DNA of 64,000 nt, from NCBI RefSeq assembly GCF_029945705.1, contig NZ_JAQSDC010000059.1, forward strand, positions 1 to 64,000, written 5' to 3'. Made by a program: the position numbers and the translations under genes. The notes under the pieces are model-generated. The model was given only the letters and a program-made list of their open reading frames with translations. It was not told where the DNA came from and did not search any database. Source of the stretch: Methylotenera sp. (GTDB lineage: Bacteria > Pseudomonadota > Gammaproteobacteria > Burkholderiales > Methylophilaceae). Positions 4,683 to 55,485 of the stretch are shown piece after piece (positions within the stretch are counted from its first letter, which is position 1; every line of letters starts with the position of its first letter).

Positions 4683-4865
4683 TGAATTTAACGTTTTATT
4701 CTAACAGTATATTTAATGAAAATTGCGAATAATTAGTTTGTAAGCCATTGAGAACTTTGCAAGATTATTACAGTCATTAAACAAACGGTTGCATCCAGAA
4801 AGCTATGTAACTCGTAATAAAGTTAATCGTTCGAAACTAAACTAAAGTCATGATTGGGAATTACT

Positions 4866-5888
4866 ATGCCTAGACTCACTACGCGACTCGTTCTACTTGC
4901 AGCTTTATTAGCCTTTGCCCAGAACGTATTCGCAATCGACCAACAAAAAGTACTCAGTGCATTGCAAACCGTTGTAATGGTGCGCGGCTACAACGATACA
5001 GGTGGCTTGTCTTACGGCTCTGGCGTAGTCGTTGCTCAAAATAAGGTCATGACCAATTGCCACATATTTCGCAGTACCAAGCAACCTTGGATAGCGCATG
5101 GTGAAGATACATACGATGTGTTTTCAGTACAAGCAGACAGATGGCATGACTTATGTTTATTAACTACATCTAACTTACCATTTAAACCAGCCAATATTGT
5201 AATGGGGCATGACCTAAAACGTGGTCAAGATATTATATCTATCGGCCATTCAAACGGTGCGCCATCGCCTTTAACTTCAGCTGGCGTCATCAACTCCACT
5301 TACACATTTGAAGGTGGACGTGTGATTAGAAGCAATGCCGCGTTCCGTATGGGGGCTAGTGGTAGTGGTATTTTTGATGTGGAAGGCAACTTACTTGGAA
5401 TCAATACATTTAAAACACCTGGTCGGCATGCATATTTCTATTCACTACCCATCGAATGGTTAGCCGATCTTGAGAAATTACCTGTTGAAACCACTTTCCC
5501 TATTAAAGGTAAAGCATTTTGGGAAGAAGATGACGATAAAAAGCCGTTTTTTATGCAAATTGCACTTCCAGAAATCAATCAGGACTGGCCTAAACTCGCC
5601 AAAATTGCACAAAATTGGATCAATAGTGATCCTAATAATTCTGATGCTTGGTACGAGTTAGGCAACGCACAAGAAAATATGCAACAAACTGAAGAGGCAA
5701 AAGCGGCATACAAAAAATCTGTAATGCTTGATGGCTCTAATACTGATTCCTTGTTTAGACTTGGCGCTATCGCCCAATCGGCTGGAGATAAAGCGGTAGT
5801 GCATGATATTAATGTAGCCATTGCCAACATCAGTAAAGATTTAGCACAAGAATACAGCCACATGCTGGGCTGTGACATGGAATGCTAA
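4866..5888 (+). CDS. Exported trypsin-like serine protease with C-terminal TPRs
   Basis: A secreted S1-type protease of about 340 residues. The signal peptide ends near NVFA-IDQQ. The catalytic triad can be read as His in MTNCHIF, Asp in WHDLCLL and Ser in GASGSGIFD, the order and spacing of chymotrypsin-fold enzymes. After about residue 215 two TPR-like helices follow (SDAWYELGNAQENMQQTEEAKAAYKKS and DSLFRLGAIAQSAGDKA), which probably bind a partner. I prefer the ATG at 4866 to the in-frame TTG at 4854 because the signal peptide begins there. It is monocistronic and ends in a strong hairpin terminator. Substrate unknown. It lacks a PDZ domain, so it is not a Deg protease. Confidence 0.85.
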   Translation: MPRLTTRLVLLAALLAFAQNVFAIDQQKVLSALQTVVMVRGYNDTGGLSYGSGVVVAQNKVMTNCHIFRSTKQPWIAHGEDTYDVFSVQADRWHDLCLLTTSNLPFKPANIVMGHDLKRGQDIISIGHSNGAPSPLTSAGVINSTYTFEGGRVIRSNAAFRMGASGSGIFDVEGNLLGINTFKTPGRHAYFYSLPIEWLADLEKLPVETTFPIKGKAFWEEDDDKKPFFMQIALPEINQDWPKLAKIAQNWINSDPNNSDAWYELGNAQENMQQTEEAKAAYKKSVMLDGSNTDSLFRLGAIAQSAGDKAVVHDINVAIANISKDLAQEYSHMLGCDMEC

Positions 5889-41712: not shown

Positions 41713-43464
41713 ATGACTGCCAACTCCACTACCACAGAAACCTTTATCCCTAGCAAGGATGCCTCACTAGAGTCATCCATCCGCACACTACAAGGCAAGC
41801 TAGAAGCGCTAGGCATACAAGTAGAAGAAAAGTCATGGTTGAATGAGATTGAAGGCATTTGGTCTGTGCATGTGATTGACCGCGACTGCACTCGCTTATT
41901 TACTAACGGTAAAGGCGCTTCTCAATTAGCAGCGCGCGCCAGCGCCTTGGGCGAATATTTCGAGCGCTTAAGCACCAACTATTTTTGGACACATTTTTAC
42001 CTAGGCGAAAACATCGCTAATAAAGACTTTGTTCACTATCCAAATGAGCAATGGTTTCATCTCAAGGGTGATAAATGGCCAGCTGGCTTGCTTACACCTG
42101 AATTGCAAAAATTCTACAACCCAGAAAACACAGCAGTCGCCAGTCAATTGATTGATTTGAACTCAGGCAATAAAGAGCGTGGCATTTGCGCAATTCCATA
42201 CAAGCGTCTGCGTGACGACAAAACCGTATACTTTCCAGTCAACCTAATCGGCAATCTATATGTAAGTAACGGTATGAGCGCTGGCAACACCTTAATGGAA
42301 GCTCGCACACAAGCACTTGCAGAGATTTTTGAACGCGATATTAAATACAAAATCATTCGTGAAGGCATTTGCTTGCCAGATGTACCAGAGGCCGTGATTA
42401 ACCGTTACCCACGTATCGCTGCAGGCATTAAAGGGTTACGTGACGCTGGTTATGGCATTTTAGTAAAAGACGCTTCATTGGGTGGACAATACCCAGTCAT
42501 GAACGTCACCTTGCTACACCCAGAAGACCAAGGTTGCTTCGCCAGTTTTGGAGCACACCCACGCTTTGAAGTGGCGCTTGAACGCGCACTGACCGAGCTA
42601 TTACAAGGCCGCGCGCTGGGTAGCTTAAAAGGCTTTGTTGCACCAGGTTTTGATATGGAAGAAATTGCTGACTCGCAAAACTTAGAAATCCATTTTGTGG
42701 ATTCTAGTGGTGTAATTAGCTGGGATTTCTTACGTAGTACCCCAGACTACGAATTTGTCGCTTGGAACTTCGGTACAACCACAGAAGAAGACTACAACTG
42801 GTGCGTTAACACCATTCACAATAGCGGACATGATATGTACATTGCCGACTTTATGCATTTAGGCGTCTATGCTTGCCGCATTTTCATACCAGGTATGAGT
42901 GAAATCTACCCTGTTGAAGAATTGGAATGGGAAAACAATACGGTAGGTAATTTAGTGCGCCCTTTCGCATTGCGACTACAAGAATTACAGCAAGAAGAGT
43001 CAGCAGCATTACTAGAAACGCTACTTGATTTAGATTTAGCTGATGAATTACCAGTGACCACGCTCATTGGCCTGTGCGCCGATGCTGGTACAACATGGGT
43101 GGATTTGCGCGCAGGTGAACTTAAAACTTTAGCCGCGCTTGCCGCAGGTGATACCGACAATATCTTAGACGGTTGCGCTTGGATTGCGCAATTTAATGAG
43201 TTGCCGCCTGCACGCGCCAAAGTTTACCGCTGCATTGCCAACTTAGTACAGATTGAAGAAGAGTTAGAGAATGGCGACACGGCTTTATTTGAAGAAAATT
43301 TAGCGCTTATGTATGGCAAAGAAACCTTGGCACAAGCACGGCGCTTAGTGAATCAAGAAGAACAATACTTTGGTTTAGAAAATTTAGGCGCCAATATGGA
43401 AGCTAGCAAAATGCATCAACAATTGCTAGCTGCTTATCGTAAAGTATGGAAACAACTTAACTAG
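41713..43464 (+). CDS. ycaO: YcaO-family protein (E. coli YcaO-type)
   Basis: YcaO proteins use ATP to activate peptide amides; E. coli YcaO is linked to RimO methylthiolation of ribosomal protein S12. The 583 residues are close to the E. coli length (586) and colinear with it as I remember. The ATP-binding region includes GKGASQLAARASALGEYFERLS, EARTQALAEIFERDIKYKIIREG and ALERALTELLQGRA. The C-terminal third is helical (TPR-like). There is no precursor peptide or partner protein of an azole pathway nearby, so this is the stand-alone form. Confidence 0.93.
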   Translation: MTANSTTTETFIPSKDASLESSIRTLQGKLEALGIQVEEKSWLNEIEGIWSVHVIDRDCTRLFTNGKGASQLAARASALGEYFERLSTNYFWTHFYLGENIANKDFVHYPNEQWFHLKGDKWPAGLLTPELQKFYNPENTAVASQLIDLNSGNKERGICAIPYKRLRDDKTVYFPVNLIGNLYVSNGMSAGNTLMEARTQALAEIFERDIKYKIIREGICLPDVPEAVINRYPRIAAGIKGLRDAGYGILVKDASLGGQYPVMNVTLLHPEDQGCFASFGAHPRFEVALERALTELLQGRALGSLKGFVAPGFDMEEIADSQNLEIHFVDSSGVISWDFLRSTPDYEFVAWNFGTTTEEDYNWCVNTIHNSGHDMYIADFMHLGVYACRIFIPGMSEIYPVEELEWENNTVGNLVRPFALRLQELQQEESAALLETLLDLDLADELPVTTLIGLCADAGTTWVDLRAGELKTLAALAAGDTDNILDGCAWIAQFNELPPARAKVYRCIANLVQIEEELENGDTALFEENLALMYGKETLAQARRLVNQEEQYFGLENLGANMEASKMHQQLLAAYRKVWKQLN

Positions 43465-43522: not shown

Positions 43523-43549
43523 TGCATCTAAAAACTACTGTGTTGCGTA
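43523..43549 (+). promoter_or_regulatory. ECF-type promoter of the sigma/ChrR operon (TGCATC-N17-CGTA)
   Basis: TGCATC at 43523-43528 and CGTA at 43546-43549, 17 bases apart. Exactly the same pair occurs before the lipid operon and before the DUF3034-globin operon, which is why I read it as the sigma factor's own promoter. The TGCATC lies in the right arm of a perfect 9-bp inverted repeat (43501-43509 / 43522-43530). Confidence 0.6.
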
Positions 43550-43585
43550 ATGCTTCATATGATAGTTAATTTGATTAAAAATACT

Positions 43586-44185
43586 ATGGTTGAACTTATG
43601 TACGCTACACCTACGCATCTGCACGACCTCTCGCCGCCATCGGATTTGCTCGCGCTCATTGGCAGAATGGCGAAAAGAGATGAATCATCTCTTGAAGATT
43701 TTTATGATATGACCCTATCAAAAGTTTATGGCCTAGCGCTTAAAATCACTCGCCGCCATGACCTAGCTGAAGATGTTGTGTGCGACACTTACTGGCAGGT
43801 TTGGCATCAAGCAGTGAGGTTTGATATTAATAGAGGCGTGCCCATGGCGTGGCTAATGCTCATTTGTCGATCACGTGCATTAGATGCATTACGTAAGTTA
43901 GACGAAGCTGAATCACACCCTGAACCTAGTGAATTAATTGTTGAGTCTGAATTTTCATGCCCTACACTTGAAAAAATGCTGACCCTAGAAAGAGATTCTG
44001 CGTTACATGTTGCTATGGCAAAGCTTACCGCCATTCAAAGGCAATTAATTGCCCTCGCTTTTTTTAAAGGTTATACACATCAAGAAATTTCTGAACAGAC
44101 TAACTTACCCTTAGGTTCTGTTAAATCTCATATTAAACGTGCGCAGGCGTCGCTAAAAGACGCGCTATCGCATCAGGAGGCCTAA
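43586..44185 (+). CDS. ECF sigma factor (RpoE/ChrR-partner type)
   Basis: A sigma-70-family ECF factor of about 200 residues. Region 2 is LEDFYDMTLSKVYGLALKITRRHDLAEDVVCDTYWQVW. Region 4 is KLTAIQRQLIALAFFKGYTHQEISEQTNLPLGSVKSHIKRA. Together with the adjacent ChrR-like cupin it belongs to the group that answers singlet oxygen or lipid damage in other proteobacteria. An ATG exists at 43550, but the predicted -10 (43546-43552) would place that codon upstream of the transcript, so I prefer ATG 43586 (or 43598). The anti-sigma gene follows two bases after the stop. Confidence 0.9.
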   Translation: MVELMYATPTHLHDLSPPSDLLALIGRMAKRDESSLEDFYDMTLSKVYGLALKITRRHDLAEDVVCDTYWQVWHQAVRFDINRGVPMAWLMLICRSRALDALRKLDEAESHPEPSELIVESEFSCPTLEKMLTLERDSALHVAMAKLTAIQRQLIALAFFKGYTHQEISEQTNLPLGSVKSHIKRAQASLKDALSHQEA

Positions 44186-44187
44186 TC

Positions 44188-44637
44188 ATGGCTAAAGATA
44201 AAGACTTAAATGTTTTAGAAGGACTAGATATAACCGTAGCTGGCGCAGTGGCATCAAGCCTACTACCAACCATTCCTGCGCCTGAAGTAGCGCATAGAAT
44301 GAAAGAAACCTTACTTAATAGAATTAAGACTTCTGAAACTAGTCATCGCTTTATGTTTGCCGACCAAGGCGACTGGCGAACCATTGCAGAAGGTGTGCAA
44401 GTTAAGATACTAAGACAAGATTCTGACAGTCGCTCAGCTTTAGTTAAAATGGCCGCAAATAGCTGCTTGCCAGCACATGATCACCATTTTGATGAAGAGG
44501 CTATCGTGCTCGAAGGTGAGGTTTGGCTCGAGGACATTCTGTGCGGCATTGGTGACTATCATCTCGCCCATGCAGGCAGCGCGCATCGCGAGATTCGTTC
44601 TGACCATGGTTGCTTACTATTTATCAGAAATGCTTAG
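44188..44637 (+). CDS. ChrR-like cupin (putative anti-sigma factor)
   Basis: A 149-residue protein with a ChrR cupin. The metal-binding cluster is LPAHDHHFDEEAIVLEGEVWLED with a third His in HREIRSDHG, in a region predicted to form a beta-barrel. In Rhodobacter ChrR a separate N-terminal domain with a His-x3-Cys-x2-Cys zinc site holds the sigma factor. Here the N-terminus (about 1-55) has neither the Cys pair nor the spaced His, so sigma binding must use another surface, or be weak. It is coupled to the sigma gene. Confidence 0.85.
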   Translation: MAKDKDLNVLEGLDITVAGAVASSLLPTIPAPEVAHRMKETLLNRIKTSETSHRFMFADQGDWRTIAEGVQVKILRQDSDSRSALVKMAANSCLPAHDHHFDEEAIVLEGEVWLEDILCGIGDYHLAHAGSAHREIRSDHGCLLFIRNA

Positions 44638-44674
44638 TTCTTAAGTCACATATAGAACACCTCTGATAAATACC

Positions 44675-45763
44675 TTGAACAAATATAACTTAGTTTTTAT
44701 GATGATATTTGGGTTTATGGCAACGCCAAGTGTGGCTGAGGAGGCATATTCAGCACCGTTTTGGTTGCCTAGCGGACACCTGCAAACTATTTATCCAGCA
44801 GTATTCACGGCTAAACAACAAGTTAAGTATCGTCGTGAGCGCTGGGAATTAGATGACGGTGACTTTATGGATGTCGATTGGATAGATAACGAGAGTAACG
44901 TTGTAAAAACTAGCGATAGTGAAAGCACTCCAACTGTTGTGCTATTCCACGGCTTAGAAGGCAGTTCAAAGAGCCACTATGCTTTAGCGTTAATGGCTAA
45001 TTTGCAAGCCAAAGGTTGGCATGGCTTGGTAGTTCACTTCCGTGGCTGCTCAGGTGAAAACAATCGTTTACCACGTGCATATTTTGCTGGAGATAGCGCT
45101 GATATAGAAATGGCATTATCTCGCGTTAAAAAAACTGTGGGCAATGCACCCGTCTATGCAGTTGGCGTTTCATTAGGTGGCAATGCACTGCTGAAGTGGT
45201 TGGGTGAATCAGGTGAACATGCAGCTGAAATCATTCAATCGGCAGCGGCTATTTCAGCCCCAACAGACTTGGCCGCCTGCGGAGAAGCATTAGATAAAGG
45301 GCTTAATCGCCTGCTTTATACTCCTATGTTTGTTAACAGTATGCGTCCCAAAGCCATTGAAAAAGCACGCCAATTTCCAGGTTTGTTAGATGAAGAAAAG
45401 ATTAAATCAGCAAGGACTATTCGCGAATTTGACACTTATGTCACTGCCAAGCTACATGGGTTCAAAGATGCTGACGATTACTGGGCTAAAAATGCCGCAA
45501 AACCATGGTTACCTTACATTAAAATCCCAACGCTGATGCTTAACGCAAAAAACGACCCCTTTATTCCTGCTGAATCTTTACCTGATCAATCATCCGTATC
45601 AGATGCAGTGACATTAGAAGTGACTGAAGAAGGCGGACATGTTGGGTTTATAAGCCTCCCCTTCCCTGGCAATAACAATTGGCTACCGCAACATATCATT
45701 CATTACTTTGAATCCTTACAGTTAAAAAGTACGCTTACTGGTCAAACAACAGATAACCAGTAA
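44675..45763 (+). CDS. YheT-family alpha/beta hydrolase
   Basis: A 362-residue hydrolase of the YheT/ABHD family. Family marks are FWLPSGHLQTIYPA, LFHGLEGSSKSHYAL (oxyanion HGLEG), VHFRGCSGENN, the nucleophile elbow GVSLGGNALLKWLGE and the late His of GGHVGF. The first 20 residues look like a signal peptide (LVFMMIFGFMATPSVA) and are not usual for YheT, so the enzyme may be exported or may begin later. TTG 44675 is the only upstream start with that segment. It follows the sigma/ChrR pair by 37 bases and probably belongs to the same transcript. Likely acts on an ester lipid (inference). Confidence 0.8.
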   Translation: MNKYNLVFMMIFGFMATPSVAEEAYSAPFWLPSGHLQTIYPAVFTAKQQVKYRRERWELDDGDFMDVDWIDNESNVVKTSDSESTPTVVLFHGLEGSSKSHYALALMANLQAKGWHGLVVHFRGCSGENNRLPRAYFAGDSADIEMALSRVKKTVGNAPVYAVGVSLGGNALLKWLGESGEHAAEIIQSAAAISAPTDLAACGEALDKGLNRLLYTPMFVNSMRPKAIEKARQFPGLLDEEKIKSARTIREFDTYVTAKLHGFKDADDYWAKNAAKPWLPYIKIPTLMLNAKNDPFIPAESLPDQSSVSDAVTLEVTEEGGHVGFISLPFPGNNNWLPQHIIHYFESLQLKSTLTGQTTDNQ

Positions 45764-45771
45764 GCGTACTT
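45727..45771. terminator. Bidirectional hairpin between YheT and globin genes
   Basis: Perfect 16-bp inverted repeat (45727-45742 and 45756-45771, core gtacgcttactggt) with a 13-base loop, overlapping the last codons of the YheT gene and lying 22 bases before the convergent globin stop. Confidence 0.85.
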
Positions 45772-45792
45772 CAAATCTAATGCTTATATTGA

Positions 45793-46323
45793 CTATTGAG
45801 CCGATAAAGTGGTTGGAGGAACTGCCACACCATTAGTCGTCTCAACTTCACGGTACATAGGTGCTAACTTAGCTAACAACTTGTTTTGCGCGGAAAATGG
45901 CACGTTATGCTTATCCATAGCAAATTGAAACTGCTCCACAAGTGCATTAAAAGCCTCACGATTTACTTTCATATTTGCGTGTGCCGTGGTCATATCGCGA
46001 CCTGGATATTTACAGCCCCCATTCATTAGCTCGCACATTTGTTCAACTAACATTGCCTTAATAAAGTCTTTTTTAGGATTATCAAAAAATGGTTTTGTGC
46101 GCGGATCTGCAATTAAACCAATCATAAAATCATCCATTATTTTAATTAAACCTTCTTTACCACCAAAGGCTTTAAAGGTTTCTGTGCCTTCCATAGGCGT
46201 ATTACCCAAATTTGGACTGCCAACAGGCGCCATCGCTTTTTCTGCACTCATTGCGGGTATTGCTTGCATGAGCGATGCACTAGTAAATAGTGCAACTAGT
46301 AATATTTTTACTTTAAAATTCAT
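45793..46323 (-). CDS. Exported truncated haemoglobin (group I)
   Basis: A 176-residue protein with a signal peptide (MNFKVKILLVALFTSASLMQAIPAMSA) ahead of a globin of the trHb1 type. Helix-B/E features FGGKEGLIKIMDDFMIGLIADPRTKPFF, then helix E with VEQMCELMNGGCKYPGRDM. The proximal helix is NREAFNALVEQFQFAMDKHNVPFSAQNKLLAKLAP, where His of MDKH is the likely haem ligand. Of three tandem ATGs after AAGGA I choose the third (46323) for spacing. Periplasmic location suggests handling of NO or O2 there. It follows the DUF3034 gene in one operon under a predicted ECF promoter. Confidence 0.85.
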   Translation of the reverse strand: MNFKVKILLVALFTSASLMQAIPAMSAEKAMAPVGSPNLGNTPMEGTETFKAFGGKEGLIKIMDDFMIGLIADPRTKPFFDNPKKDFIKAMLVEQMCELMNGGCKYPGRDMTTAHANMKVNREAFNALVEQFQFAMDKHNVPFSAQNKLLAKLAPMYREVETTNGVAVPPTTLSAQ

Positions 46324-46348
46324 CATCATTCCTTGTTCAATCGTTAAT

Positions 46349-47314
46349 TTAGAAGCCAATCTGAGCGGATAAGTACACTGAGTCTTGTTTGCCGTAATTT
46401 GCGCCCACCGCGTTAACTGTCGCGATATTGCCTAAATTGACATAAGCCACTGTGAGTGAAATGTTTTTAGATGGCGCATAAGCTACAAAAACATCAAATG
46501 CATCATCTTCTTTGAGGTCAACAGCACCACCAACGGTGTTGTCTAAATTGTGAGGTTTCGTGCGATACTCAGCACCAACAGCAAGGTTTTTAGCTAACAA
46601 ATAAGCAGCTGATAGTTCAAGTTCAGGGCTGTAACTATCATGCCTATCCCCACCAAAGCCTAAAAGACCAAACTGGTTAGCTTTAGTCATGCGTACAGTA
46701 CCGTTTAACAATAAATTTTTGTCTAATAACAATTTAGTAGCTGCTACGTAGAAATCCACACCATGATCTTTTTTAGCGCCTATCACGCCGCCAGTTACAA
46801 AATCACCATCATGATTTTTTTTGTATTGCATTCCCACTGCTACTTGAGGAATCCAGCTGTTGGCATCTAATACTGCCTCACCTAAAACACGAACTTTTGC
46901 ACCAATAATAGTTTGTTCAACCTCATCACGACCAATCGCATCAGCCCCAAGTCCTGCTTTCACCTTGCCTCTTAAGTCACGCACATCGAATGATTGCTGC
47001 GCAACTGAAAGCTCAAACCGATCATAAAAGCCTAGGGTTACACCGTAGGTATCTAATTGAAAGTCGTTTGTTTTAGCATAGGTATAATGTACATTGCCGC
47101 CAATTTCGTTGTTTGTACCATAGCCGCCGATAACAGCCCACGGCGTCAATCCGCCACCTGCCGCACCTTCAACCTGAGAAACACCGCCAGTTAAAAGTAG
47201 TTTGTTGCTATAAGTTTCCGCTTGAGTAGTGGATGAACTAAAGCTCACCCCCAGCGTAATGGTCGAAACTACTGTTGCTAGTAGTCGCTTTTTGAAGCGA
47301 GTTTGCTTGTTCAT
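46349..47314 (-). CDS. DUF3034-family outer-membrane-type protein
   Basis: A 321-residue exported protein with a signal peptide (cleavage near TQA-ETY) and DUF3034 pattern: NKLLLTGGVSQVEGAAGGGLTPWAVIGGY, LDTYGVTLGFYDRFELSVAQQSFD, and a last strand ending in QIGF. Alternating hydrophobic strands and the terminal Phe fit an outer-membrane beta-barrel. Function unknown. It is the first gene of the operon with the exported globin; its upstream region has TGCATC-N17-CGTATA. Confidence 0.85.
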   Translation of the reverse strand: MNKQTRFKKRLLATVVSTITLGVSFSSSTTQAETYSNKLLLTGGVSQVEGAAGGGLTPWAVIGGYGTNNEIGGNVHYTYAKTNDFQLDTYGVTLGFYDRFELSVAQQSFDVRDLRGKVKAGLGADAIGRDEVEQTIIGAKVRVLGEAVLDANSWIPQVAVGMQYKKNHDGDFVTGGVIGAKKDHGVDFYVAATKLLLDKNLLLNGTVRMTKANQFGLLGFGGDRHDSYSPELELSAAYLLAKNLAVGAEYRTKPHNLDNTVGGAVDLKEDDAFDVFVAYAPSKNISLTVAYVNLGNIATVNAVGANYGKQDSVYLSAQIGF

Positions 47315-47384
47315 ATATTCTCCAAAAGTAAAAGATCGTGACGAACAATCCTTTCCTTAGGAATTGAATTGATCACTCAGGAGA

Positions 47385-47413
47385 TATACGCTGCATCGAT
47401 ATATTTAGATGCA
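47385..47413 (-). promoter_or_regulatory. ECF-type promoter of the DUF3034-globin operon
   Basis: On the minus strand TGCATC (47413-47408), 17 bases, then CGTATA (47390-47385). Same elements and spacing as the promoter before the sigma gene. A start near 47378 gives a leader of about 65 bases to the ATG at 47314. Confidence 0.6.
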
Positions 47414-47468
47414 GAAAAGACTAGTTATATGCCAATAACACCAAGTACCTTAAATTCATCTAAATTAT

Positions 47469-47498
47469 TGCATCCATCAGCGTAAACACCACGTATAA
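47469..47498 (+). promoter_or_regulatory. ECF-type promoter of the lipid operon
   Basis: TGCATC (47469-47474), 17 bases, CGTATAA (47492-47498). Third copy of the motif, back to back with the DUF3034 promoter; the leader to the first gene at 47593 would be about 90 bases. Confidence 0.65.
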
Positions 47499-47592: not shown

Positions 47593-48651
47593 ATGCAATT
47601 AACAAGTTTAGCTATAAAGTTGGCTGAAAAAGGTTTAGTTCCTGATAGCGCAATCAGGGCTGGCATTAGGCAGCTATCAGAAACACGGCTTAAAGAAATA
47701 CGTGCGGATAATTGCGAAGCTGGTTCGAAAATTGAAGCTGATTTCGTAGCTGCTATGAACCTAGCGCCTATTGCCTTAGTGCCAGAATTGGCAAATGCAC
47801 AACATTACGAACTGCCTACAAAATTCTTTGAATTATGTTTAGGAAACCATCGCAAATACAGTAGCTGTTTTTGGTTACCTCAAACATCATCATTAGATGA
47901 AGCGGAAGCTAATGCATTGCAGATGAGTTGTGAGCACGCAGACTTAAAAGATGGTCAACATATTTTAGAGCTAGGCTGCGGCTGGGGCTCACTGACATTA
48001 TGGATGGCTGCGCATTACCCGAATAGCCAAATCACAGCGGTTTCTAATTCAAACTCACAGCGCGAGCATATTACTACTACAGCCGCACAGCGCGGACTTA
48101 AAAATATTTCCGTGATTACTTGTGATATGAATAATTTTTCGCCGAGTGCATTTTCGATAAACAAAGCATTTGACCGCGTAGTCTCGGTTGAGATGTTTGA
48201 ACACATGCGTAACCACAAACTTTTATATGGTAAGGTGCATGATTGGCTAGTGCCAGGCGGTAAGTTTTTTATGCACATATTTGTGCATCGCTCAACGCCC
48301 TACGCGTTTGAAGTACAAGGTGACGACGACTGGATGAGTCAGTTTTTCTTCTCTGGCGGCATGATGCCTAGCGATGATTTGCCTTTACATTTTCAACAGA
48401 AGTTAAAGCTGAACAAGCGCTGGCGCTGGGATGGCACACATTATGAAAAAACTGCCAATGCTTGGCTGGAGAATATGGATAAACATGAAAGCACCATCAC
48501 ACCAATTTTAAAAGATACCTACGGCGTTGATGAGGCCGTTAAGTGGCGTAATCGCTGGCGCATATTCTATATGGCATGTGCAGAGTTATTTGGTTATAAA
48601 AACGGTCAAGAATGGTGGGTTTCACATTATCAATTTGAGCGCCCTGCTTAG
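47593..48651 (+). CDS. CFA-synthase-like SAM methyltransferase
   Basis: A 352-residue class I methyltransferase of the Mycolic_acid/CFA group. The SAM motif is ILELGCGWGSLTLWMA (about residue 120), with downstream VVSVEMFEHMRNHKLL. Proteins of this type methylate double bonds of membrane acyl chains. It begins the long lipid operon and differs from the second, more typical CFA synthase at the operon's end, so the two probably act on different steps or positions. In Rhodobacter the RpoE/ChrR regulon includes such a gene. Confidence 0.88.
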   Translation: MQLTSLAIKLAEKGLVPDSAIRAGIRQLSETRLKEIRADNCEAGSKIEADFVAAMNLAPIALVPELANAQHYELPTKFFELCLGNHRKYSSCFWLPQTSSLDEAEANALQMSCEHADLKDGQHILELGCGWGSLTLWMAAHYPNSQITAVSNSNSQREHITTTAAQRGLKNISVITCDMNNFSPSAFSINKAFDRVVSVEMFEHMRNHKLLYGKVHDWLVPGGKFFMHIFVHRSTPYAFEVQGDDDWMSQFFFSGGMMPSDDLPLHFQQKLKLNKRWRWDGTHYEKTANAWLENMDKHESTITPILKDTYGVDEAVKWRNRWRIFYMACAELFGYKNGQEWWVSHYQFERPA

Positions 48652-48663
48652 GGAAAATCACTC

Positions 48664-49206
48664 ATGATAATGATTAACTTCATTTTGTTTCAACTAGCCT
48701 GGTTTGCTTGCGTGATAGGCGCTGCAAAAGGTATGCCTTGGCTAGGTGTCATAGTCACCTTACTTGCGTTGAGTTGGCATCTATATCAAGCAAAAAATGT
48801 AAAGTATGAAGTGATTTTGATGTTGTATGCTCTGCTCATTGGCGCCGCATATGACCAATCTATGCTTTCTTTAGGTTATATTAGCTATCTCAATAATGGT
48901 TGGAGTAATGCCATTGTGCCAGTCTGGATTCTCGCGCTTTGGCTAGGTTTCACCAGCACGCTAAATGTAAGTTTGCGCTGGATGCGCGGTAAATATGTAA
49001 TCGGTATTATATTTGGCGCGATTGGTGCCCCGCTAGCTTACTTAAGTGCGGAAAAGTTGGGTGCAGTAGTGCTTCACGGCGCAACTAGTTATATAGCCTT
49101 GTCGATTGGCTGGGCAATCATCACGCCATTATTACTCTTACTTTCCAGTCGCTATGATGGATTCGCTCATTCTCCTATGAAATCATTTAAAGGCTTATCG
49201 AATTGA
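48664..49206 (+). CDS. DUF2878-family membrane protein
   Basis: A 180-residue polytopic protein, five to six hydrophobic segments, with the DUF2878 pattern (LFQLAWFACVIGAAKGMPWLGV, VPVWILALWLGFTSTLNVSLRWMRG, APLAYLSAEKLGAV). Function unknown; it recurs in lipid operons of this kind. Its stop overlaps the next gene's TTG start (TTGA). Confidence 0.8.
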   Translation: MIMINFILFQLAWFACVIGAAKGMPWLGVIVTLLALSWHLYQAKNVKYEVILMLYALLIGAAYDQSMLSLGYISYLNNGWSNAIVPVWILALWLGFTSTLNVSLRWMRGKYVIGIIFGAIGAPLAYLSAEKLGAVVLHGATSYIALSIGWAIITPLLLLLSSRYDGFAHSPMKSFKGLSN

Positions 49207-49988
49207 ACCATTGGCAACTATACTTCAGTGGTCTACTCAGCATCAGTTTACTGGCATTTGTTGGCTGGTTAATTAGCTTGGTTAGGAAAAATGTGACGCA
49301 TGTAGACAGCATGTGGAGTTTATTCTTAATGATATCTGCCTACAGCTATGCGTTACTATTAAATGAACTCACGCCTCGCATGTTTTTAGTGCTATTTCTG
49401 GTGAGTTTATGGGCCATTAGACTGTGCGTATATTTAACTTGGCGTAATTGGGGGCCGCATGAAGATCATCGCTATGTAGCCATTCGTCAAAACAATGAAG
49501 CGCACTTTAGGTTTAAAAGTATTTATATTATATTTGGCCTACAGGCAGTACTTGCTTGGATTATTTCCATGCCTTTATTCGGTGCCATTGAATCAAAAGC
49601 GTTGTTAACAAGATTAGATGTTTTGGGTGGCATCTTATTTACCTTTGGTTTTGTATGGGAAACCATTGCAGATTGGCAATTAAGTATATTCAAGGCCAAT
49701 GCTAACAATCAAGGCAAAGTACTTGATACGGGGGTTTGGCGCTACAGCAGGCATCCAAATTACTTTGGTGAGTGCTGTGTTTGGTGGGGATTTTATCTCA
49801 TCGCTTTTGCGGGTGGCGCATGGTGGACGATTACTGGGCCAATATTAATGACGCTTTTACTACTTAAAGTGAGTGGCGTTGCGCTGCTAGAAAAAGATAT
49901 TTCAGAACGCCGTCCAGCTTATATAAGCTACATTAAAAATACGAATGCATTCTTTCCATGGTTTCCCAGAAGGTCTTCATCTTTATGA
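49203..49988 (+). CDS. DUF1295-family membrane protein (steroid 5-alpha-reductase-like)
   Basis: A 261-residue integral membrane protein. The C-terminal signature of the steroid-reductase/ICMT fold is plain: DTGVWRYSRHPNYFGECCVWWGFYLIAF, where Arg-His-Pro-Asn-Tyr binds NADPH in relatives. The likely reaction is reduction of a lipid double bond (inference). TTG start is coupled to the previous gene; its stop overlaps the next ATG (ATGA). Confidence 0.88.
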   Translation: MNHWQLYFSGLLSISLLAFVGWLISLVRKNVTHVDSMWSLFLMISAYSYALLLNELTPRMFLVLFLVSLWAIRLCVYLTWRNWGPHEDHRYVAIRQNNEAHFRFKSIYIIFGLQAVLAWIISMPLFGAIESKALLTRLDVLGGILFTFGFVWETIADWQLSIFKANANNQGKVLDTGVWRYSRHPNYFGECCVWWGFYLIAFAGGAWWTITGPILMTLLLLKVSGVALLEKDISERRPAYISYIKNTNAFFPWFPRRSSSL

Positions 49989-50620
49989 ATAAAGCTATAT
50001 GTATTAGTAGAATATTATTGACAAGCCTCTTTTCATCTGGTGTCAGTGCCAAAGAGTGGTCTTTTGATGTGTACTTAGACAAAAATAAAATTGGACAGCA
50101 TGAATTTAAACTGAGCGATTCTAACGAGCTAACCAGTACGGCAAAATTCAACGTCAAAGTGTTATTTATTAACGCTTATCAATATGATCATCAAGCTGTG
50201 GAGCAATGGCAAGGCGACTGTTTAAGTAGTTTAGAGTCACATACTGTAGAAAACAAAGTTGAAACCAATATTAAAGCAAAGCTATCAGGGCAAGACTTTA
50301 CGGTAGACGATGGCAAAGTGAAACAAAAGCTTCCTGCTTGTAGCATGACTTTTGCTTATTGGAACCCTAAAATAATTCAGCAAACTAAACTGTTGAACCC
50401 ACAAAATGGGGAGTGGTTAGATACAAAATTCACTCACCTAGGCACTGAAACAATAGAGGTAAAAAATAAAAAGGTAGAAGCCAATCACTACAAATTAGAC
50501 GGTAGCCTCAAAGGTAAGAGCAAGTTAAAAATTGAGCTATGGTATTCATCTAATAACGAATGGCTAGCACTTAAATCCATTACGCCAGAAGGCTACACTA
50601 TTAATTATAAATTACGTTAA
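49985..50620 (+). CDS. Exported DUF6134-like protein
   Basis: A 211-residue protein with a signal peptide (LLTSLFSSGVSA-KEW) and beta-rich body: WSFDVYLDKNKIGQHEF, KFNVKVLFINAYQYDHQAVEQWQGDCL, with a repeat of strands and two Cys (CLSS, PACSM). It matches my memory of DUF6134. It probably works in the periplasm as lipid-binding or assembly aid; function unproven. ATG 49985 overlaps the DUF1295 stop. Confidence 0.7.
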   Translation: MNKAICISRILLTSLFSSGVSAKEWSFDVYLDKNKIGQHEFKLSDSNELTSTAKFNVKVLFINAYQYDHQAVEQWQGDCLSSLESHTVENKVETNIKAKLSGQDFTVDDGKVKQKLPACSMTFAYWNPKIIQQTKLLNPQNGEWLDTKFTHLGTETIEVKNKKVEANHYKLDGSLKGKSKLKIELWYSSNNEWLALKSITPEGYTINYKLR

Positions 50621-50654
50621 GTTCATATAATAACTAATTGAAAGTTAAATTAAA

Positions 50655-51212
50655 ATGATTCTAGTAAACATTAAAAGAGTATTCATCATGTCAATACTTG
50701 CAAGTATTTTAACCGCCTGCGCAACCACTAAATTACCGTCCATTGCGACAGTGCCCCAAGTAGATTTACCAAGGTTTATGGGTGACTGGTATGTGATCGC
50801 GGCTATTCCAACCATGATAGAAACCCAGTCTTACAACGCCATTGAAAATTATAAACTCAATGCAGATGGCACTATAGCCACTACCTTTACTTTTAATAAG
50901 GGTAGTTTAAACGGCGAGTTCAAAACTTATCAGCCACATGGTTTCGTGATTGAAAATACTGGTAATGCCTTGTGGGGCATGCAGTTTATTTGGCCGATTA
51001 AAGCTGAATACCGTATTGCCTATTTAAACGATGACTACACACAAACTGTGATTGCAAGAAATGCACGTGATTACGTTTGGATTATGGCAAGAACACCCAC
51101 AATCACTGATACAGAATATGTAAAATTAACCAGTTTCATCTCTAACCTTGGTTACGATTTAATTAAATTACGTAAAGTGCCTCACAACACAAGTAAAGCT
51201 ACAAATCCATAA
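50655..51212 (+). CDS. blc: Lipocalin lipoprotein (Blc-like)
   Basis: An outer-membrane lipocalin of about 170-185 residues. A lipobox ILTA-C places the lipid-modified Cys near residue 22. The lipocalin opening FMGDWYVIAAIPTMIE and the later pattern YTQTVIARNARDYVWIMARTP are both present. Bacterial lipocalins bind fatty acids or lysophospholipids, fitting a lipid operon. The start may be ATG 50655 or ATG 50688. Confidence 0.88.
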   Translation: MILVNIKRVFIMSILASILTACATTKLPSIATVPQVDLPRFMGDWYVIAAIPTMIETQSYNAIENYKLNADGTIATTFTFNKGSLNGEFKTYQPHGFVIENTGNALWGMQFIWPIKAEYRIAYLNDDYTQTVIARNARDYVWIMARTPTITDTEYVKLTSFISNLGYDLIKLRKVPHNTSKATNP

Positions 51213-51232
51213 TATTGGAACGCTTAAACACC

Positions 51233-52171
51233 ATGCTTAAAAAGATTATTAAATGGTTTGATAATGAAGCCGTGACCATCCCTGATGATGGTCTGAACTA
51301 TCGTGCCAACTGGCGCCAAATTGATTTGTGGCGTGTTATTCCATTTGTGCTGCTTCACCTAGCTTGCTTCGCCGTATTTTGGGTTGAGTTTAGTTGGTTT
51401 GCACTGGTTTTTGCCATAGCACTGTATGCCATAAGAATGTTTGCAATTACTGGCTTTTATCATCGCTACTTTTCACATAAGGCGTTTAGAACGACCCGTG
51501 TATTTCAGTTTGTTTTAGCTGTATTTGGTGCCACCGCGGTACAACGTGGTCCTTTGTGGTGGGCTTCACATCATCGACATCACCATATTAAGTCAGACGA
51601 GATTGATGATGCACACTCCCCCGTACAACATGGTTTTTTATGGAGTCACTTGGGCTGGTTTCTTTCCAACAAACACTTCGCCACACAAACTGACCGCGTA
51701 AAAGAGCTGGCTAAGTTTGTAGAGTTACGCTTACTTGACCGTTTTGATATTGTTATACCGATACTTTTTGGCCTAAGTATTTATCTATTAGGCGTGTGGC
51801 TTGAGAGCTATTACCCTAACTTAAATACCAATGGCATGCAGCTATTGGTTTGGGGGTTTGCAATCTCCACCGTGGTGTTATATCACGCCACATTTACCGT
51901 CAACTCACTTGCTCACGTGTGGGGAAAAAGACGCTATGCCACTAGTGATCAAAGCCGTAATAACTTATGGATTGCACTTTTAACTTTAGGTGAAGGCTGG
52001 CACAACAATCATCATCACTATCCAGGCTCAGCTCGACAAGGCTTTTACTGGTGGGAAATCGACTTGACCTATTACGGTTTAAAGCTACTCGCCGCCTGTG
52101 GCTTGATATGGGACATCAGAACTGTGCCAAAAACTATTCGCGAATCAAGAAAAATTAACAATAAAGCTTAG
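51233..52171 (+). CDS. Membrane acyl desaturase (delta-9 type)
   Basis: A 312-residue di-iron membrane desaturase. The three His boxes are HRYFSH, HHRHHH and HNNHHH, with four membrane segments. Such enzymes add a cis double bond to acyl chains, which would then be the substrate of the two methyltransferases. ATG 51233 is preferred; a TTG at 51215 would add six residues. Confidence 0.93.
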   Translation: MLKKIIKWFDNEAVTIPDDGLNYRANWRQIDLWRVIPFVLLHLACFAVFWVEFSWFALVFAIALYAIRMFAITGFYHRYFSHKAFRTTRVFQFVLAVFGATAVQRGPLWWASHHRHHHIKSDEIDDAHSPVQHGFLWSHLGWFLSNKHFATQTDRVKELAKFVELRLLDRFDIVIPILFGLSIYLLGVWLESYYPNLNTNGMQLLVWGFAISTVVLYHATFTVNSLAHVWGKRRYATSDQSRNNLWIALLTLGEGWHNNHHHYPGSARQGFYWWEIDLTYYGLKLLAACGLIWDIRTVPKTIRESRKINNKA

Positions 52172-52183
52172 GAAAGTAGTCTT

Positions 52184-53437
52184 TTGAAAATAGCCATTAT
52201 AGGTAGCGGTATTGCAGGCAACACCATTGCATACCACTTAAACAAGCAACACGATGTGACTGTATTTGAGGCAGAAAGCCACACTGGTGGCCACACGCAC
52301 ACGCATCACATCACGCATGAGGGCAATCCATACAATGTGGACACTGGCTTTATCGTATTTAACGATCGTACTTACCCTAACTTCATTGCACTGCTTGATG
52401 AGTTAAAAGTAGCTTGGCAACCGAGTGAAATGAGTTTTAGTGTGCAATGTGAAAAAACGGGTTTGGAATATAACGGCACTAATTTAAACAGCTTATTTGC
52501 GCAACGCCGCAATTTATTTAAGCCATCGTTTCACCAAATGATTCGAGATATTTTACGCTTTAATAAAACTTCACTTGAGTTACTGGCTGATGGCAATGAA
52601 ATTAAATTGGGTGATTATTTAAAACAAGGAAATTACAGCCAGCAGTTTATTGACCAATACATCATTCCTATGGGGTCTGCAATTTGGTCGACAGAAGCGC
52701 GTCAAATGCTAGATTTTCCAGCACGTTTTTTTGTACGCTTTTTCCATCACCACGGCATGCTCACAGTGAATAACAGGCCGCAATGGCGCACCATTACGAA
52801 TGGTTCAGCAAGCTACGTAAGCGCATTGACTGAAAGCTTTAAAAATAAAATTCGTCTCAATACACCTGTAGAAAGTGTGCGCCGATTAGCCGCATCTGTG
52901 CGTGTTAAGCCGCTATATGGCGAAGAGGAAAAGTTTGATTATGTATTTTTCGCATGCCATAGCGACCAAGCATTAAAACTACTTAGCGATAAAAAACCGA
53001 ATGAAATAGAAATATTAAGCGCGATTCCATATCAACAAAATACCATATTTTTGCACCATGATGTTTCTATGATGCCTAAGCGGAAGCTTGCATGGGCTGC
53101 TTGGAACTACCATGTGACTAATCCACATGCTGAGCAAGTGGCCGTGACTTACAACATGAATATTTTGCAGAGCCTAAAATCAAAAGAACCGCTACTTGTG
53201 ACTTTAAATCACACCAAATTCATTAACCCTGCCAAAGTAATTAAACGACTGAAATACATGCACCCTGTTTATACATTGGCTGGTGCAGCGGCACAAGCTA
53301 GGCATGCTGAAATTAGTGGTAAGAACAGAACTGGCTTTGCAGGGGCATACTGGCGCAACGGTTTTCATGAAGATGGTGTGGTCAGTGCTTTAGAGGCTAT
53401 TAAGCATTTTGAACAAGCCAATATTGGTAAAACTTAA
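52184..53437 (+). CDS. FAD-dependent amine-oxidase-like oxidoreductase
   Basis: A 417-residue flavoprotein, starting at TTG 52184 after taggaaag. The N-terminal dinucleotide site is IAIIGSGIAGNTIAYHL with the acidic end VFEAESHTGGH. The middle part has VDTGFIVFNDRTYPN, typical of this 'NAD/FAD-binding protein' group seen with DUF1365 and CFA genes. It may oxidise or isomerise the modified acyl chain. It overlaps no other gene but is one base from DUF1365. Confidence 0.9.
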   Translation: MKIAIIGSGIAGNTIAYHLNKQHDVTVFEAESHTGGHTHTHHITHEGNPYNVDTGFIVFNDRTYPNFIALLDELKVAWQPSEMSFSVQCEKTGLEYNGTNLNSLFAQRRNLFKPSFHQMIRDILRFNKTSLELLADGNEIKLGDYLKQGNYSQQFIDQYIIPMGSAIWSTEARQMLDFPARFFVRFFHHHGMLTVNNRPQWRTITNGSASYVSALTESFKNKIRLNTPVESVRRLAASVRVKPLYGEEEKFDYVFFACHSDQALKLLSDKKPNEIEILSAIPYQQNTIFLHHDVSMMPKRKLAWAAWNYHVTNPHAEQVAVTYNMNILQSLKSKEPLLVTLNHTKFINPAKVIKRLKYMHPVYTLAGAAAQARHAEISGKNRTGFAGAYWRNGFHEDGVVSALEAIKHFEQANIGKT

Positions 53438-54214
53438 ATGTCCAATAGCGCTATTTATCAAGGTTTTGTTACACATCATAGATTCCAGCCTAAGCCACAT
53501 GGTTTTCGCTATAAAGTATTTATGATGTATTTAGATTTAGATGAATTGCCAAACTTATTCAGTGGTTTTAAAAACTGGTCTTATGCAGTTAAAAATTGGG
53601 CATGGTTTAAGCGCTGTGATTACTACGGCGACCCCCAAATACCACTTAAACAAGAGATTAGTAAGCTAGTTTTACAAACCACTGGCTCTGCACCACGTGG
53701 TGCAATCCGACTACTCACCAATATGCGCTACTTTGGTCATTGTTTTAATCCAGTGAGTTTTTATTATTGTTATGAAGCCAATGGCACGACCTTGCAAGCA
53801 ATCGTCAGTCATATCACCAACACCCCTTGGGGCGAAGATTACGCTTATGTACATGACTTTAAAGCAGATAAAACAGTAAAAAATACTAAAAATGGTGAAA
53901 TATCCGTCTTCAAGTTTGATAAACAGTTTCATGTATCACCCTTTATGCCTATGGACATTCAATACGATTGGGCATTTAAGCATGAAGCCAATCAATTACT
54001 TATTCACATGAAAAACTTTAAAGGTGGCGAACAAGTGTTCAACGCCACATTAGCCCTAGAACGCCAAGAAATAACGCAAAGTAACCTCAATTGGATTTTA
54101 ATGACCTATCCATTGATGACCATTAAAGTAGTTGCGGCCATCTATTGGAACGCGCTTTGGCTTTGGATTAAACGTGTGCCCTTCTATTCAAACCCAATAC
54201 AAGTTAACAAATAA
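53438..54214 (+). CDS. DUF1365-family protein
   Basis: A 258-residue protein with the DUF1365 marks YQGFVTHHRFQPKPHGFRYKVFMMYLDLDEL, LLTNMRYFGHCFNPVSFYYCY and VSPFMPMDIQYDW. No activity is established; the family is nearly always beside CFA-type methyltransferases. Start immediately after the flavoprotein stop. Confidence 0.9.
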   Translation: MSNSAIYQGFVTHHRFQPKPHGFRYKVFMMYLDLDELPNLFSGFKNWSYAVKNWAWFKRCDYYGDPQIPLKQEISKLVLQTTGSAPRGAIRLLTNMRYFGHCFNPVSFYYCYEANGTTLQAIVSHITNTPWGEDYAYVHDFKADKTVKNTKNGEISVFKFDKQFHVSPFMPMDIQYDWAFKHEANQLLIHMKNFKGGEQVFNATLALERQEITQSNLNWILMTYPLMTIKVVAAIYWNALWLWIKRVPFYSNPIQVNK

Positions 54215-54216
54215 TA

Positions 54217-55485
54217 ATGATCAATCAAACACTTCAACAAGAAACATTAACTGCTAGCCTAAAGCAAAAAAGTCGCTCCAAATGGGTGGCTGATTTTGCA
54301 AAGTCAAAAATACTTAAACGCTTGCAGCAGCTACAAAAAGGTAGCCTAACCCTTGTTGATGGTGCTGAGCAGCACACGTTTGGCAATCCTGACGGGCTAA
54401 GCGCTAGCATTTACGTACATGACTCACGTTTTTATGGCGAAATCGCTTTTGGAGGCAGCATAGGTGCTGGCGAAGCTTATATGCTGGGTTATTGGACAGC
54501 GGATAATCTTACCGATGTGATTCGCATGATGTGTCTCAATCAATCTGTCATGGATACGCTTGAAGGTGGTTATCAATGGCTAACCAAACCTTTTTTACAA
54601 ATACTGCATTGGTTAAATAGCAATACCACGGAAGGCAGTCGCAAAAACATTGCTGCCCATTACGATTTAGGTAATGACATGTTTGCCTTGTTTTTAGATG
54701 CCACCATGATGTATTCCAGCGCTATTTTTAACGAGAGCACACCGAATCTACAAGCGGCTTCAGAACTTAAACTTAAAACCATTTGCGATAAGCTGGATTT
54801 AAAATCGACAGATCATGTAGTTGAAATCGGCACTGGCTGGGGTGGCTTTGCCATTTATGCAGCAACACACTATGGCTGCCACGTGACCACTACAACCATT
54901 TCTAAACAGCAATATGAACTTGCAAAAGCCAGAGTTAAAGCGGCAGGTTTAGATAGTAAAGTCACGCTATTACTTGAAGATTATCGCCATTTAACAGGCA
55001 CTTTTGATAAGCTTGTTTCTATTGAAATGATTGAAGCGGTCGGGCATCAGTTTTATGACACCTACTTTGCTAAAGTGAGTTCACTGCTTAAAGCCGACGG
55101 ATTAGCTTTGATTCAAGCTATCACCATTGCCGATCAGCGTTATGAAAATGCAAAAGAATCAGTGGATTTTATCCAACGTTATATATTTCCAGGTTCTTGC
55201 ATTCCATCAAACACGGCCATGCTCAATAGCGTGACTAAAGTGAGCGATTTGCGACTATTCGATTTAGAAGATATTGGCCCACACTACGCGACTACATTGA
55301 AGATTTGGCGTGATAACTTTTTTGCCAATATCCAAGAAGTGCGCAAACTCGGTTATTCAGAAGAGTTCATTAAAATGTGGGACTTTTACTTAAGCTATTG
55401 CGAAGGCGGCTTTATGGAGCGTGCGTTAGGTGATGTGCATTTACTTTTAGCAAAACCAGAAAATCGAAGAGATGCGTTAATATAA
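54217..55485 (+). CDS. cfa: Cyclopropane-fatty-acyl-phospholipid synthase
   Basis: A 422-residue enzyme that uses SAM to put a methylene (or methyl) group on the cis double bond of phospholipid acyl chains. The N-terminal lipid-binding domain includes FYGEIAFGGSIGAGEAYMLGYW. The catalytic part has NIAAHYDLGNDMFALFLDATMMYSSAIF, SAM motif VVEIGTGWGGFAIYAA, QQYELAKARV, SIEMIEAVGHQFYDTYF and FIQRYIFPGSCIPS, all family-typical. It ends the operon. Confidence 0.95.
   Translation: MINQTLQQETLTASLKQKSRSKWVADFAKSKILKRLQQLQKGSLTLVDGAEQHTFGNPDGLSASIYVHDSRFYGEIAFGGSIGAGEAYMLGYWTADNLTDVIRMMCLNQSVMDTLEGGYQWLTKPFLQILHWLNSNTTEGSRKNIAAHYDLGNDMFALFLDATMMYSSAIFNESTPNLQAASELKLKTICDKLDLKSTDHVVEIGTGWGGFAIYAATHYGCHVTTTTISKQQYELAKARVKAAGLDSKVTLLLEDYRHLTGTFDKLVSIEMIEAVGHQFYDTYFAKVSSLLKADGLALIQAITIADQRYENAKESVDFIQRYIFPGSCIPSNTAMLNSVTKVSDLRLFDLEDIGPHYATTLKIWRDNFFANIQEVRKLGYSEEFIKMWDFYLSYCEGGFMERALGDVHLLLAKPENRRDALI

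Follow-up and report, generated by a model that had tools for sequence, protein, structure and literature searches.

The genes for an extracytoplasmic function (ECF) sigma factor and a short cupin protein lie side by side in a stretch of 64,000 nucleotides from a Methylotenera genome (contig NZ_JAQSDC010000059.1, positions 1 to 64,000, hereafter the window), and three copies of TGCATC-N17-CGTA in their vicinity are very probably promoters of this sigma factor, which the cupin protein would restrain and which would drive its own operon, a gene pair for a DUF3034 protein and an exported globin (DUF3034-globin) and an operon of nine lipid genes. According to the model that we propose, the three sites would serve as -35/-10 promoters read by the sigma factor, and the adjoining cupin protein would hold it back, presumably by sequestration, until it senses a stress which by analogy may be oxidative or photo-oxidative; the freed sigma factor would then transcribe its own operon (sigma factor, cupin protein, hydrolase), DUF3034-globin and the lipid operon. 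Before a distant operon for a BufA2 bufferin, downstream of another conserved element, there may be a fourth such promoter. What the analysis shows is sequence, position, conservation and co-occurrence; binding by the sigma factor, sequestration by the cupin protein and the nature of the stimulus are inferred.

Results

As the initial annotation had claimed, an exact TGCATC-N17-CGTA precedes the sigma gene, DUF3034-globin and the nine-gene lipid operon (Table 1); the window holds one further exact match, at 4790, which the annotation did not include. Shuffled windows contained 0.13 matches on average and none of 100 shuffles reached four. Regarding the -10 element, which had been given as CGTA(T), CGTA stands at all three regulon sites and the T at two of them, the sigma site reading CGTAATG. 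The distance from the end of CGTA to the start codon amounts to 36 bp for the likely ATG of the sigma gene (43586), 72 bp for DUF3034 and 97 bp for the lipid operon, and a longer sigma open reading frame (ORF), from 43550, would begin directly at the -10 box. The last two sites form a divergent pair, with DUF3034-globin on one side and nine co-directional lipid genes on the other. Across the whole genome (2.93 Mb in 60 contigs), TGCATC-N16-18-CGTA has 25 matches (11 with N17), 17 of them inside ORFs of at least 90 amino acids (aa), and its reversed form has 12; the bare pattern thus performs poorly as a detector and is not diagnostic across the genome, where position and conservation decide. 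With TGCATCY-N16-CGTA the count becomes eight versus none reversed: five of these are correctly oriented upstream of a gene, namely the three regulon sites, the match at 4790 and one before the bufferin operon on contig C36, and the remaining three lie inside ORFs. Widening the pattern to TGAATC gives nine matches versus three reversed, the extra one within an ORF. For three of 11 randomly placed matches to fall within 3973 bp the probability is about 0.001 (0.00026 if the total is taken as eight, 0.012 if it is taken as 25).

The family comparison covered 120 genomes, of which 12 have the cupin-partnered sigma factor (cupin-ECF; E 1e-92 or better), 11 have an ECF sigma factor at 1e-34 to 1e-38, and 97, part of them incomplete, have neither at E 1e-20. 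We call the second kind RskA-type from the PF10099 score (62.9 bits) of the partner in one genome, the other ten having a downstream protein with a similar N-terminus. A short cupin gene adjoins the sigma gene in all 12 cupin-ECF genomes, and downstream of it stands, in 12/12 with our own genome included, an ORF that resembles the hydrolase as judged on its N-terminus. A thirteenth cupin match (G055, E 2.6e-7) belongs to a genome with neither kind of ECF, and no motif was found on its locus. Of the 12 cupin-type sigma genes, 11 have the motif in the 500 bp before them (at -426 in G007); of the 11 RskA-type genes, three do. The twelfth genome, G106, has the order DUF3034-globin-sigma-cupin-hydrolase, with TGAATC-N16-CGTA ahead of DUF3034 and another site in front of the lipid operon. 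Elsewhere in the order, outside the family, 7/16 loci that combine a cupin match with an ECF gene show the motif ahead of the latter, one extra spacer base being allowed and ORF starts being uncertain. The ECF tree (48 rows) places the cupin-ECFs of the family in one group (95/97), and those of family and order in one part of the tree with the RskA-type ECFs apart; of its 45 inner branches 20 are open, and several rows are long-branched.

The DUF3034 protein and the globin appear as well supported members of the regulon, and here the initial claim was borne out by comparison. TGMATCY-N15/16-CGTA lies upstream of DUF3034 orthologs (at least 70% identity) in all ten genomes that have one, and upstream of a paralog of about 50% identity in none of the 20 places examined (of 31 listed). 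These orthologs are confined to genomes with a cupin- or RskA-type ECF (10/23, five of each kind; 0/97 of the others). Gene order provides a link between DUF3034-globin and ECF control that does not depend on the motif, since in four relatives it stands directly before a co-directional pair of ECF sigma and anti-sigma genes (L071, L167, L169 and, for DUF3034 only, G095, where the order DUF3034-ECF-CMAS was read from coordinates). At L167 (G059) and L169 (G116) a single one-direction run comprises DUF3034, globin, ECF, RskA-type anti-sigma and lipid genes; both RskA-type loci also have a divergent gene that looks quinoprotein-like by eye. The second site of the g19 genomes precedes DUF3034-globin-DUF4394 in G019 and, in the five without a DUF3034 ortholog, lies about 300 bp before a DUF4394-like gene (one such protein was scanned). 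The globin of the window has an N-terminus that resembles a signal peptide by eye. In a different family of the same order, the gene immediately before a cupin-ECF sigma gene encodes a Bac_globin protein whose N-terminus is likewise signal-like (L115:210-1956).

The lipid operon is a predicted member here and not in all relatives. In the best 30 of the 84 genomes with its first gene, the site is present in 5/5 with cupin-ECF, 1/8 with RskA-type ECF and 0/17 with neither; among those with RskA-type ECF, G059 and G095 for instance have the first lipid gene behind the anti-sigma gene instead. G106, outside the best 30, carries the site as well. Within the genus the site is found in 4/4 genomes with the sigma factor versus 0/8 without (Fisher 0.002). 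The core lipid genes behind the sigma-type promoter are in our genome two CMAS genes, the flavoprotein gene and DUF1365.

To describe the promoter more closely, 28 sites were gathered with TGMATCY-N15/16-CGTA from sigma, DUF3034, lipid and bufferin promoters, several near-identical sites being excluded. The base after TGMATCY, which was not a selection criterion, is A in 28/28, and CGTA is followed by T in 21/28, which gives the consensus TGMATCYA-N14/15-CGTA(T); in a comparison set, A follows TGCATCY in 8 of 21 matches from 12 genomes without either ECF. TGCATCY-N16-CGTA outnumbers its reversed form 59 to 8 in the 12 cupin-ECF genomes and 21 to 16 in those 12 without either. The reversed pattern had no match in 113 upstream stretches, three of them misplaced at truncated loci (L198, L257 and L269), where the correct stretch has no motif site either.

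The possible fourth target is the operon on contig C36, which encodes a BufA2 precursor (NF050166, 107.5 bits, cut-off 60) and a BufB maturase (NF050167, 387 bits, cut-off 310). Its upstream region was compared at 13 loci, and in nine of them (L254-L256, L258, L259, L261, L262, L264 and L265) TGTAAGG followed by CGACTAA is whole by eye, both with and without a cupin or RskA-type ECF in the genome. As for the exceptions, the element takes a variant form in G002 and G025, only its second half is seen in the stretch viewed from G101, and the stretch from G061 represents another region. TGMATCY-N16-CGTA lies downstream of this element in G000, G027, G090 and G022; G101 has a one-base variant of the site, and G059 both boxes at a longer spacing. 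TGTAAGG-CGACTAA is perhaps the promoter of another ECF sigma factor, and we read TGMATCY-CGTA before bufA2 as a second, tandem promoter, a reading that follows from sequence conservation and not from presence counts.

With respect to the proteins themselves, the solved structures nearest to the sigma factor are SigK (6.6e-23) and RpoE of R. sphaeroides (3.1e-21), about equally near, and the SigK model scores 129.5 on it versus a cut-off of 226. The cupin protein had been proposed as a ChrR anti-sigma factor. Its C-terminal ChrR-type cupin domain supports this proposal, whereas the zinc domain motif HxxxCxxC is absent and no Cys occurs in the first 60 residues, in 12/12 family cupins beside the sigma gene and in one from outside the family, and the curated ChrR models stay far under their NCBIfam cut-offs (NF051881, 33.9 versus 300; TIGR02451, 24.9 versus 124.5). 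The metal-ligand pattern HxH-x(3,4)-EE is found in 13/13 cupins. Single-sequence folds were uninformative, with a mean predicted local distance difference test (pLDDT) of 38.6 for the cupin protein and 28.7 for DUF3034. By its position and its cupin domain the protein is an anti-sigma candidate that may act like ChrR, and we do not class it as ChrR. A partner without the zinc anti-sigma motif and below the NCBIfam cut-offs weakens the inference of singlet oxygen as the stimulus.

Discussion

Several results weigh against a regulon of the cupin-ECF sigma factor. Relatives with an RskA-type ECF carry the same motif before DUF3034, their own sigma gene or the lipid operon, and our genome holds three further ECF matches. 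The near-random genome count of the bare pattern comes close to the outcome that the initial annotation had named as speaking against it. All six g19 genomes with cupin-ECF keep an intact lipid operon elsewhere, with no such site. A weight matrix built from ten sigma promoters gives the lipid-operon site of the window 6.3, less than the 11.3 that shuffled windows reach as their mean maximum, and those of three congeners 18.8-26.8; the matrix over-weighted the spacer, and we relied on box consensus and conservation in its place. The 28 collected sites are partly related by descent, and the bufferin site, present in 4/15 loci with either ECF versus 0/15 without (best 30 loci), gives about 0.1 by hand, which is not significant.

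The motif in RskA-type relatives and the three further ECF matches speak for a reading in which the sites are promoters of another ECF sigma factor of this genome and the cupin-ECF gene adjoins them by happenstance, and since RskA-type ECFs go with the same motif, the motif alone cannot name its sigma factor. We nevertheless regard this as unlikely, as no RskA-type ECF was found in our genome at E 1e-20, the motif precedes the cupin-ECF gene in nearly all genomes that have it, and in congeners the lipid-operon site tracks the presence of cupin-ECF. The initial claim that all three promoters belong to this sigma factor, autoregulation included, is retained in part: the three sites look like one ECF-type regulon and the sigma gene has its own site, but the motif is not private to it.

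A different role for the same letters, as inverted repeats TGCATC/GATGCA bound by a repressor or an activator, is suggested by TGCATC-N10-GATGCA inside the DUF3034 site and by GATGCA-N14-TGCATC, which at the sigma promoter ends in the -35 box. Such operators are very improbable, because the lipid-operon site has no repeat, the in-site repeat is found by eye only at the DUF3034 sites of G000 and G027 among the 28, and TGMATCYA and CGTA are kept at fixed spacing and orientation. That the sites are chance matches, as the genome count at about twice the reversed control and the loss of the 4790 match in two of three close relatives might suggest, is hardly credible, being contradicted by clustering, position, conservation and co-occurrence.

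Judged by comparison, the regulon of the cupin-ECF sigma factor looks real, and both its promoter and its anti-sigma candidate are variants. The published systems, cited here from excerpts, include first the RpoE-ChrR (ECF11) singlet-oxygen regulon of Rhodobacter, Shewanella, Pseudomonas syringae and Vibrio cholerae, with which it shares the succession of sigma and cupin genes, a site before the sigma gene, a CGTA -10 and TG..ATC -35 element, and CMAS-type and DUF1365/UfaO lipid genes among the targets (PMC5507510, PMC4336711, PMC5241685, PMC6852236, PMC7380195), UfaO being a furan fatty acid synthesis protein with the DUF1365 domain (PMC7380195). It differs in its anti-sigma candidate, which is about 149 aa long and lacks the HxxxCxxC zinc domain, in targets that comprise DUF3034, the exported globin and possibly the bufferin operon, and in its -35 element: ECF11 promoters are given as TGATC(C)-N16-18-CGTA (PMC5241685, PMC5507510, PMC4336711), whereas all 28 collected sites read TGMATC, and TGMATCY is one base longer than TGATCC with an equal distance from the end of the -35 element to CGTA. 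Anti-sigma domains that lack this zinc motif have been described more generally (PMC7406223). SigK-RskA offers a second likeness, SigK being the nearest solved structure and relatives having an RskA-partnered ECF in a DUF3034-globin-lipid operon with the same motif; yet the partner here is a cupin protein and the two sets of ECFs fall in separate parts of the tree. In Caulobacter, sigmaF-NrsF resembles the bufferin case in that DUF692/DUF2063 operons are under an ECF sigma factor (PMC3511200), while the BufA2 operon here has an added TGMATCY-CGTA site. A survey places sigma-factor genes in Buf1 clusters and not in Buf2 (PMC12452194), where we infer that BufA2 of NCBI corresponds to Buf2. In titles and abstract openings of open-licence papers, which are weak evidence of absence, neither this motif nor DUF3034 or a globin as an ECF target is named; DUF3034 came up there only under unrelated titles, and the letters TGCATC in PMC6664582 are part of a primer.

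The regulon may be larger than the three operons, through the bufferin operon, and not fixed, the lipid operon being without a site in six g19 genomes. It is tempting to go further and to propose, as something for which the chances seem to us even, that a class of ECF sigma factors with zinc-less cupin anti-sigma factors extends across several families of the order, has its own -35 code (TGCATCYA) and couples membrane-lipid remodelling to an exported globin, DUF3034 and a bufferin metallophore, and that the promoters and the operon stayed the same while cupin and RskA pairs took each other's place. If true, DUF3034 and the exported globin would gain a regulatory context in an ECF-controlled membrane-stress response, and the family would provide a case of an ECF regulon that keeps its promoters while the sigma/anti-sigma pair switches type. 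Since the zinc site of ChrR has been proposed to react with singlet oxygen (excerpts of PMC6852236 and PMC6432622), a ChrR-like protein devoid of the zinc domain would also be useful for asking in which half of ChrR the stress sensor lies.

Other features of the window and its relatives

Table 1. Promoter sites and genes of the proposed regulon in the window, with the fourth exact motif match.
Feature	Position	Strand	Support or remark
Sigma-operon promoter site, TGCATC-N17-CGTA	43523..43549	+	site at most 500 bp upstream in 11/12 family genomes with the sigma factor
ECF sigma factor, 199 aa from ATG 43586	43586..44185	+	Pfam Sigma70_r2 and r4
Short cupin protein, 149 aa, anti-sigma candidate	44188..44637	+	PF12973, 58.3 bits (cut-off 27)
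Alpha/beta hydrolase, third gene of sigma operon	44675..45763	+	NF008218 (PRK10985), 287.3 bits (cut-off 267)
Bac_globin-family protein, start ATG 46329, 46326 or 46323	45793..46329	-	PF01152, 33.5 bits
DUF3034 protein, first gene of DUF3034-globin	46349..47314	-	PF11231, 325.6 bits
DUF3034-globin promoter site	47387..47413	-	exact TGCATC-N17-CGTA
Lipid-operon promoter site	47469..47495	+	both boxes kept in 4/4 aligned congeners
CMAS-family methyltransferase, first gene of lipid operon	47593..48651	+	PF02353, 127.7 bits
Lipid genes 2-6: DUF2878, DUF1295, DUF6134, lipocalin, fatty acid desaturase	48664..52171	+	gaps -31 to 34 bp
Lipid genes 7-9: amine oxidase-like flavoprotein, DUF1365, CMAS	52184..55485	+	
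Fourth exact match, before trypsin/TPR protein gene	4790..4816	+	probably not a regulon member

The fourth match was considered as a further local promoter and rejected, its boxes being intact in G096 and broken in G027 and G090. Upstream of the same trypsin/TPR protein gene (4854-5888), GAACTT is followed about 16 bases on by TCA(T) (window about 4751-4780, + strand), which resembles an RpoE-type promoter; AGAACTTTGC recurs in 10/13 rows of the genus alignment.

A search of genome contigs for related loci returned 11 distant ones (ten from Bacillota, one actinobacterial) and no near relative. Directly upstream of the sigma operon lies a gene for a YcaO protein (window 41713-43464, + strand), and a similar ORF occupies this place in three congeners. 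At L174, which like L175 is an RskA-type ECF locus, TGAATCC-N16-CGTA stands upstream of a gene that by eye resembles a MerR regulator. Finally, L316 (G090:C1:2066979-2067005) has TGAATCTA-N15-CGTA 70 bp before an 87-aa ORF without an assigned function, a site absent among the matches of the three congeners.

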